Of a stretch of 64,000 nt of DNA, positions 6,834-59,330 are shown in pieces. The stretch's first letter is position 1, and each line of letters begins with the position of its first letter. Under the pieces are notes generated by a model that saw only the letters and a list, made by a program, of their open reading frames with translations, was not told the origin of the DNA and searched no databases. The position numbers and the translations under genes are program-made. Source of the stretch: a virus; IMG/VR virus record IMGVR_UViG_3300042934_001067, positions 1 to 64,000 of that record; one strand, 5' to 3'.

Positions 6834-6868
6834 CCGCCCCTTGGGGCGAATGACGGACAAGGAGACAC
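6834..6868 (-). promoter_or_regulatory. Late promoter-like element of the hub gene
   Basis: Minus strand GTGTCT, 20 bases, AAGGGGCGG. It abuts the GTG start of the hub gene, leaving almost no leader. Confidence 0.4.
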
Positions 6869-15384: not shown

Positions 15385-15420
15385 TCACCCCTTGAGGGCG
15401 CGATGGGAGGGGCGAACAGG
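15385..15420 (-). promoter_or_regulatory. Late promoter-like element
   Basis: Minus strand CTGTTC, 20 bases, AAGGGGTGA; ends 16 bases before the GTG of the 211-residue gene. Confidence 0.5.
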
Positions 15421-16871: not shown

Positions 16872-16908
16872 TCACCCCTTGGAGGGCGACGGAGGAGGCG
16901 CGGACAGC
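16872..16908 (-). promoter_or_regulatory. Late promoter-like element
   Basis: Minus strand CTGTCC, 21 bases, AAGGGGTGA; 15 bases before the 241-residue neck gene. Confidence 0.5.
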
Positions 16909-20462: not shown

Positions 20463-20498
20463 TCGCCCCTTGGCGGCCGATGACCGGGCACGAACAGC
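20463..20498 (-). promoter_or_regulatory. Late promoter-like element
   Basis: Minus strand CTGTTC, 20 bases, AAGGGGCGA; directly downstream of a terminator and 24 bases before the 219-residue gene. Confidence 0.5.
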
Positions 20499-22284: not shown

Positions 22285-22320
22285 TCACCCCTTGAGGAGG
22301 CCAGGTGCACCCCAGACAGC
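22285..22320 (-). promoter_or_regulatory. Late promoter-like element (proximal of a tandem pair)
   Basis: Minus strand CTGTCT, 20 bases, AAGGGGTGA; 32 bases before the 127-residue gene. Confidence 0.5.
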
Positions 22321-36400: not shown

Positions 36401-36437
36401 TCACCCCTTGGCGGTGGCCGCGCACATGCCAGACAGG
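36401..36437 (-). promoter_or_regulatory. Late promoter-like element
   Basis: Minus strand CTGTCT, 21 bases, AAGGGGTGA; 28 bases before the XhlA-like gene and directly past the endolysin terminator. Confidence 0.5.
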
Positions 36438-37622: not shown

Positions 37623-37659
37623 TCACCCCTTGGGGAGGGCCCAGACGCTGTGCAACAGG
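37623..37659 (-). promoter_or_regulatory. Late promoter-like element of endolysin
   Basis: Minus strand CTGTTG, 21 bases, AAGGGGTGA; 26 bases before the endolysin ATG. Confidence 0.45.
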
Positions 37660-41680: not shown

Positions 41681-41716
41681 TCACCCCTTGGGCCCGGGGA
41701 AGCCGCCACAGACAGG
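41681..41716 (-). promoter_or_regulatory. Late promoter-like element of portal
   Basis: Minus strand CTGTCT, 20 bases, AAGGGGTGA; 18 bases before the portal ATG. Confidence 0.5.
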
Positions 41717-46525: not shown

Positions 46526-46561
46526 CCGCCCCTTGGAGGGCCGAAGGAGGGGTGAGACAGG
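46526..46561 (-). promoter_or_regulatory. Late promoter-like element
   Basis: Minus strand CTGTCT, 20 bases, AAGGGGCGG; 17 bases before the 734-residue gene. Confidence 0.45.
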
Positions 46562-58413: not shown

Positions 58414-58518
58414 GAAGTGCTCCTCGTGGCGGGTCGAGGCGGAAAGACGGGGTCCCCGGTCTCCGTGGCGGCCGGAGTGCGTGGGGATCCCCACCCTAAT
58501 GCACATCGATATGCGTGT

Positions 58519-58920
58519 CTAGCCGGTGGCAGCACTCTTCCCGGCCATCACGTCCCACGCCTGGACACCCACCCGCAGACGCACCCGCTGGAACCCCTTC
58601 GCCCCCACCCGGGCCTCGTCCCGCAGCCACGCCGCAGACCGCGCCGTCAACTGAGCCAGCGTCACCACCCCCGACCGCAAAAGGCAGTTCGCCACCCGGT
58701 GCCCCGTCGCGTCGTGCCCCAGCAGGTCATACAGCTCACCCCCGCCGCACCGCCCGCACCAGACCCGCTCCCGCGCCGCAGGCCCGTCAGCCACCAGCGG
58801 CAGCGGACCGGCCGGAAACGCCCGCACCAGAGCAGCGAACGCCTCCACCTCCTCCAGCGGCGCCCCCCGCTCCAGCAGACGGCCCGCCGCCGCCTGCAAC
58901 TCCTCCACCGGCCCGCTCAC
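58519..58920 (-). CDS. Protein with RNA polymerase alpha-CTD-like domain
   Basis: 133 residues from GTG 58920 (GTGA coupled). N-terminal helices, a CxxC pair (VWCGRCGGGEL, C55/C58), then a helix-hairpin-helix-rich end (~72-118): HRVANCLLRSGVVTLAQLTA and RSAAWLRDEARVGAKGFQRV. This aligns by eye with the alpha C-terminal domain (NCL.R..I.TL..L......L....G.KS...V). It could contact promoter UP-like DNA or activators and redirect host polymerase. Assignment needs structure prediction; HhH proteins of other kinds are possible. Confidence 0.6.
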   Translation of the reverse strand: MSGPVEELQAAAGRLLERGAPLEEVEAFAALVRAFPAGPLPLVADGPAARERVWCGRCGGGELYDLLGHDATGHRVANCLLRSGVVTLAQLTARSAAWLRDEARVGAKGFQRVRLRVGVQAWDVMAGKSAATG

Positions 58921-59330
58921 GACCGGCCCTCCGCCGCACGGGCCCGAGCCTCGGCCGCCCAGATCCGGCCCAGCTCCGCCAACTGCTCCTCGTGCGCCAG
59001 AAACATCACGTACGGCAACGGCGGCCGGGTGCGCGGGACGGTGGTGGACAGCCGCATGGACTCCTCGCGGTGCGCGTACACGTCCATGCCGACCCACTCC
59101 TGGTTGCCCGGGATTGCGTAGGCGACACTCCAGTCCGCATGCGGCCGGAACGCGGTCAGCAGCCCTGCGTCCACGGCCGCCAGCACCCACCGGCGAGCTG
59201 TCGCCGGAGACACCCCCCGCTCCTCGGCGATCACGGCCCTCGCCAGGTCGACGGTCACCAGCCGCAGAGGCTTCTCGACGCCCAGCCGCCGGACAGTCTT
59301 GGCGGCCTCGGCCGCCCGCTCGTCGGACAT
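58917..59330 (-). CDS. Winged-helix-like protein, unknown
   Basis: 137 residues. N-terminal HTH-like DLARAVIAEERGVSPATARR with following WVLAAVDAGLLTAFRPHADW, then strands (YAIPGNQEWVGMDVYAHREE). Regulator-like. Overlaps the alpha-CTD-like gene, which suggests joint use. Confidence 0.6.
   Translation of the reverse strand: MSDERAAEAAKTVRRLGVEKPLRLVTVDLARAVIAEERGVSPATARRWVLAAVDAGLLTAFRPHADWSVAYAIPGNQEWVGMDVYAHREESMRLSTTVPRTRPPLPYVMFLAHEEQLAELGRIWAAEARARAAEGRS

Follow-up and report, generated by a model that had tools for sequence, protein, structure and literature searches.

A small phage protein with a predicted double helix-hairpin-helix domain resembling the alpha-CTD of RNA polymerase

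The DNA analysed here (the window) was a stretch of 64,000 nucleotides, part of a virus record of 156,276 bases. A minus-strand open reading frame (58519-58920), which starts with GTG at 58920 and ends with TAG at 58521-58519, encodes a protein of 133 amino acids. The start of the frame overlaps the stop of the upstream gene (58917-59330, minus strand) in the sequence GTGA; with GTG, TAG and GTGA located, both the reading frame and the overlap described in the initial annotation were real. The closest relative of the protein (83% identical) was found on a 156,949-base contig of Streptomyces sp. MH60, a relative with 46% identity on the circular 154,158-base plasmid pRLB1-9.1, and more distant relatives (34-35% identical) on soil viral contigs.

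The N-terminal part of the protein is predicted to form a helical hairpin (residues 4-33; 58822-58911, minus strand), for which AlphaFold gave helices at residues 4-17 and 22-33 with low-to-moderate confidence. The same hairpin module was found in pRLB1-9.1 (L003, 6271-7014) and in L012 (1046-1477), and it also opens an unrelated phage protein. It is followed by a CxxC pair (residues 55-58; 58747-58758, minus strand), invariant in the six phage relatives and inferred to bind metal, and by a GHDATGHR motif (residues 68-75; 58696-58719, minus strand), in which G68, H69 and H74 were invariant and R75 nearly so among 13 phage, plasmid and chromosomal relatives. The CxxC reported in front of the alpha-CTD-like part was thus present, and in the phage relatives a CxxC...GHxxxxGHR motif invariably precedes that domain. 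The alpha-CTD-like double helix-hairpin-helix (HhH) domain covers residues 61-126 (58543-58740, minus strand) in the AlphaFold model and contains an ungapped match to alpha-CTD at residues 75-117 (58570-58698, minus strand) in sequence and profile comparison. In the comparison with MH60, the N-terminal part was under strong purifying selection (dN/dS of about 0.12), whereas residues 54-118 (58567-58761) gave a dN/dS of about 0.93 from few substitutions, so that selection there was not clearly purifying; between these sister phages, the alpha-CTD-like domain changes much faster than the hairpin.

In single-sequence searches, the protein matched the Pfam family RNA_pol_A_CTD (PF03118) with 16.6 bits (E 0.0065), short of the family's curated threshold (23.8 bits), and a phmmer search of the PDB returned alpha subunits at E-values from 0.03 to 0.27. 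These results were marginal and suggestive, and the single-sequence searches (Pfam, PHROGs, NCBIfam and PDB) were set aside as too weak to serve as deciding evidence. In profile comparison using hhalign, the alignment of the six phage relatives matched that of 22 actinobacterial alpha-CTDs over 45 ungapped columns with a probability of 92.9% and a score of 37.6, the phage-family profile being shallow (Neff of about 1.8). The same phage profile gave probabilities of at most 1.1% and scores of at most 13.9 against RuvA, UvrC-like, ligase-like, polymerase-type and other HhH groups, which we had labelled ourselves by sequence and ORF length. These groups did not rise above the level of 60 column-shuffled controls (at most 2.3%, score at most 15.6), and the profile similarity was therefore specific to alpha-CTD over other HhH domains. 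In the reverse direction, a search of 392 Streptomyces genomes with the phage-family HMM picked up rpoA with some of the weaker matches (per-genome E-values from 9e-5 to 8.5e-4; five loci in four Streptomyces genomes, with the rpoA identity read from the sequences).

The AlphaFold model of the window protein had a pLDDT of about 90 at residues 61-100; past this region the values were in the eighties. Helices were placed at 62-67, 71-82, 88-92, 96-101 and 106-126. When this model was searched using VIA-align, the first 21 rows were all alpha-CTD or alpha chains, with Z 6.9 for the alpha-CTD of B. subtilis, Z 6.5 for that of S. coelicolor and Z 4.9 for the best unrelated chain; these Z values are modest, and values below 8 may reflect a common arrangement. 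The model of the L014 protein (34% identical) likewise placed alpha-CTDs at the top (Z 6.8), with a SAM domain as the best unrelated match (5.8), and both models were built on shallow alignments. In Foldseek, the row of highest probability (0.96) for the window model was the alpha-CTD of S. coelicolor, with 42% identity over 40 columns, but the best E-value (0.24) was to an unrelated chain, and all E-values exceeded 0.1 for both models. NusA, Rad51-type and SAM domains appeared lower down in the fold lists. The structure prediction that had been proposed as a check was passed, in that two predicted models ranked alpha-CTDs first, and at the level of prediction the domain has the alpha-CTD fold. 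The initial annotation had described a match of the C-terminal 45 residues over two helices and the HhH turn. The match was real and ungapped over 43-45 residues, but it lies at residues 75-117 and not strictly at the C-terminus; the HhH-type fold was also recovered, but the modelled domain spans residues 61-126 with four to five helices. With these adjustments, the observation of an alpha-CTD-like domain holds at the level of sequence comparison and modelling.

In alpha-CTD, the residues N268, G296 and K298 serve in binding to the UP element and the minor groove, and D259 and E261 of alpha contact sigma. In the ungapped alignment, R75, N78, G106 and K108 of the window protein correspond to R265, N268, G296 and K298 of alpha; all four UP-element residues are kept, with no variation among the six phage members. 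An equivalent of C269 was present in the window protein only, and E302 was not kept. When the ungapped alignment was extended, the positions of D259 and E261 fell on H69 and A71, so that the sigma-contacting acidic residues are lost. The residues C55, C58, H69 and H74 were invariant in the phage clade and possibly form a putative zinc site, while some plasmid relatives are without the CxxC. The predicted fold and the sequence were thus nearer to alpha-CTD than to other HhH domains, with the minor-groove residues kept. Among these residues, the counterpart of R75 has been described as crucial to the UP-element contact (Arg265; PMC2988021).

Compared with RpoA itself (alpha-CTD, PF03118), the protein shares about 40% identity with the alpha subunit of S. 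coelicolor over residues 75-117 and the order of helices. It differs in having a CxxC ahead of the domain, in scoring under the Pfam cut-off, and in the replacement of the acidic sigma-contact positions within GHDA, of S299 by G and of E302 by R. No match to alpha-NTD was found in Pfam or NCBIfam for the 133-amino-acid protein. With no alpha-NTD and without acidic residues at the sigma-contact positions, the protein cannot join the polymerase as an alpha subunit. Stand-alone proteins of this kind are already annotated in phages: the name alpha-CTD protein is given to phage proteins in BFVD, among them one from Mycobacterium phage Mithril, and genes for alpha-CTD-like proteins turned up by direct search in Bacillus phage Goe8 and in Microbacterium phages. 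The Goe8 'RNA polymerase subunit alpha', gp26 of the Microbacterium phage Mazun and the Mithril protein are phage proteins of about 140-210 amino acids that have, or are annotated with, an alpha-CTD-like domain; the Goe8 and Mazun proteins resemble host alpha more closely, with 55% identity (E 8e-10) and 38.5% identity (E 1e-7), respectively, across the matched region. The window protein, with its CxxC/GHD front, is therefore best regarded as a divergent form of a kind already known.

The alpha-CTD-like family spans Streptomyces phage-plasmids and soil phages, and chromosomal paralogues also exist. The Streptomyces chromosomal proteins (L022-L031), for which no family name was found, share the core CxCEGGELFDxLGHDRxGHRLANxLLRAG, but they carry an additional N-terminal cysteine-rich segment and a generic GIG hairpin and are nearer to UvrC-type HhH. 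The profile of this chromosomal clade matched UvrC HhH with 72% and alpha-CTD with 47.5%, whereas the phage clade matched UvrC with 0.6%. The Pfam family HHH_5 was matched by four of the 13 relatives (best E 1.3e-6). The HHH_5 and UvrC-type double HhH domains belong to one superfamily of double-hairpin DNA-binding domains with the window protein, but the phage clade has no profile affinity to them. Because the chromosomal profile is nearer to UvrC and some relatives match HHH_5, the family occupies a place intermediate between alpha-CTD and generic HhH, and the phage clade, as judged from its profile, falls on the alpha-CTD side. The alpha-CTD resemblance could be partly convergent within the broader HhH family, and by itself it does not show descent from a host alpha gene.

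The upstream overlapping gene (58917-59330) appeared HTH-like by eye and had no hit in Pfam, PHROG or NCBIfam. The initial annotation had pointed to it as a winged-helix gene and possible partner. This gene was missing next to the homologues carried by the sister phages, and no viral relative of it was found; therefore, the overlap is no evidence of a functional pair, and the neighbour was dropped as a partner. The two genes downstream of 58519-58920 are kept in MH60.

Directly after the gene lies a promoter-like site on the minus strand (58493-58521; TAGACA - C GCATATCGATGTGC AT - TAGGGT), the -35-like box of which overlaps the stop codon, with the 14-base near-palindrome GCATATCGATGTGC (58501-58514, minus strand) inside its spacer. 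This near-palindrome occurs eight times in the genome, all within 58.5-80 kb (six exact and two with one mismatch; none in the reversed control). The other copies are at genome (G000) positions 65245, 67130, 72110, 73426, 75302, 78430 and 79905, in leftward promoter-like sites. Every copy is flanked by a -35-like position and by a TAGnnT box of -10 type, with a leftward gene following some 45-90 bases further on; some are without a good -35 match. The set looks like the repressor operators of early promoters, forming a repressor regulon; it is similar in MH60 and absent in pRLB1-9.1. The near-palindrome was set aside as the alpha-CTD-like protein's own binding site, because pRLB1-9.1 has the gene and not the site. 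As for the description of the gene as early, its position in the leftward block with operator-like promoters, below the copy at 65,245, agrees with it and is its sole basis.

The late promoter-like elements, to which the protein had also been linked, follow the pattern TGTY-N19/20-YCAAGGGGYG. Nine exact copies were found in each of this phage, MH60 and pRLB1-9.1, on one strand only (none in the reversed controls). In the window they are on the minus strand at 6835-6867, 15386-15418, 16873-16906, 20464-20496, 22286-22318, 36402-36435, 37624-37657, 41682-41714 and 46527-46559, mostly just upstream of structural genes and on the structural strand. About half of them fold strongly (z to -5) into a hairpin over the ribosome-binding site and the others do not. 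Where the hairpin is lacking, both boxes are still there at a distance of 19-20 bases; therefore, a DNA element fits better, and RNA hairpins over the ribosome-binding site were rejected as an explanation. Two other phage proteins are likelier to act at these elements than the alpha-CTD-like protein. The best candidate late factor is a sigma-70 region-4 protein of 128 amino acids (L166; G000 114718-115104, minus strand; Pfam Sigma70_r4_2, 28 bits, over the cut-off), which is 80-96% identical across the three phages. The other is a WhiB-family protein (G000 130604-131155, minus strand; L167 6604-7155) encoded by this phage and by pRLB1-9.1, the two versions being 73% identical. The elements themselves were therefore real, while the alpha-CTD-like protein was a weak candidate for the factor acting on them, and a specific role there is possible.

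As judged from the sequence comparisons and models, the protein is probably, though by a modest measure, a DNA-binding accessory protein of the early phase, its C-terminal half consisting of an alpha-CTD-type double HhH domain. This reading draws on the specificity of the hhalign match, the shuffles, the reverse rpoA search, the two models and the four kept residues, as well as on the presence of the family in several phage lineages and the purifying selection on the N-terminal part. It has to accommodate the missed Pfam cut-off, Foldseek E-values all above 0.1, Z values below 8, an Neff of about 1.8, the chromosomal paralogues that carry the CxxC/GHD motif and are nearer to UvrC HhH than to alpha-CTD, and the fast evolution of the domain between sister phages (dN close to dS, on small counts). 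The protein would be made early, from leftward repressor-controlled promoters; its CxxC and GHxxxxGH residues would bind zinc and brace the domain; and it would bind the minor groove as an accessory regulator sitting upstream of phage promoters. Alternatively, it might compete with the host alpha-CTD for UP-like sites or activators. It would not be an alpha subunit, and assembly into the polymerase is not expected.

A generic HhH DNA-binding protein of replication, recombination or repair that takes no part in transcription is unlikely but is the strongest of the alternatives: the repair HhH superfamily, the HHH_5 matches and the position of the chromosomal clade fit it, but the phage clade has almost no affinity to UvrC and its match is specific to alpha-CTD. 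Somewhat less likely again is an alpha-CTD mimic acting on the host polymerase, in which the free domain would bind sigma region 4 or activators, or block UP elements, and so redirect transcription. Modulation of the polymerase by an alpha-CTD-like protein is a reasonable idea, given the likeness in sequence and predicted fold, the kept equivalents of R265 and N268, the location in the early block and the fact that T4 Alt and ModA target the same residue, Arg265 (PMC2988021); however, the D259 and E261 positions are replaced within GHDA, the alpha-NTD is absent and no co-evolving partner was seen. That the protein activates late genes at TGTY-N19/20-YCAAGGGGYG, alone or with the sigma-70 region-4 protein, appears quite improbable. 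Three full-size relatives have the elements as well as both genes, and adjacent binding of alpha-CTD and sigma region 4 to UP and -35 DNA is known (PDB 3n97), but these three phages are close relatives, which makes the co-occurrence weak evidence, and soil phage contigs carrying the gene, which are incomplete fragments, had no such elements; the sigma-region-4 protein is also better conserved and WhiB is another candidate. Slightly more improbable still is a dismantled promoter-recognition module, in which the separate sigma-70 region-4 and alpha-CTD-like proteins would recruit host polymerase to these elements. A chance likeness of a short helical segment, as the single-sequence Pfam hit under the cut-off might have indicated, is the least probable and is disfavoured by the profile comparison, the shuffles, the reverse search and the two models.

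Stand-alone alpha-CTD proteins occur in phages of several bacterial groups, and in the freely accessible literature searched, none with a tested function was found. With a small conserved family, a genome with two defined sets of promoter-like elements and the isolate hosts Streptomyces RLB1-9 and MH60, phage steering of host transcription by free alpha-CTD domains is therefore directly testable.

A 2020 paper discussed pRLB1-9.1 as a plasmid lacking genes for telomere proteins, and the word phage does not occur there (PMC7205883). Nevertheless, it encodes an HK97-fold capsid, baseplate J, ParA and ParB, and capsid, baseplate, ParA/ParB and replication genes were recognised together on it (L003, L169-L171). 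It is evidently a phage-plasmid. Because a plasmid of this lineage carries phage structural and Par genes, we infer that this phage, the MH60 contig and pRLB1-9.1 are large Streptomyces phage-plasmids.
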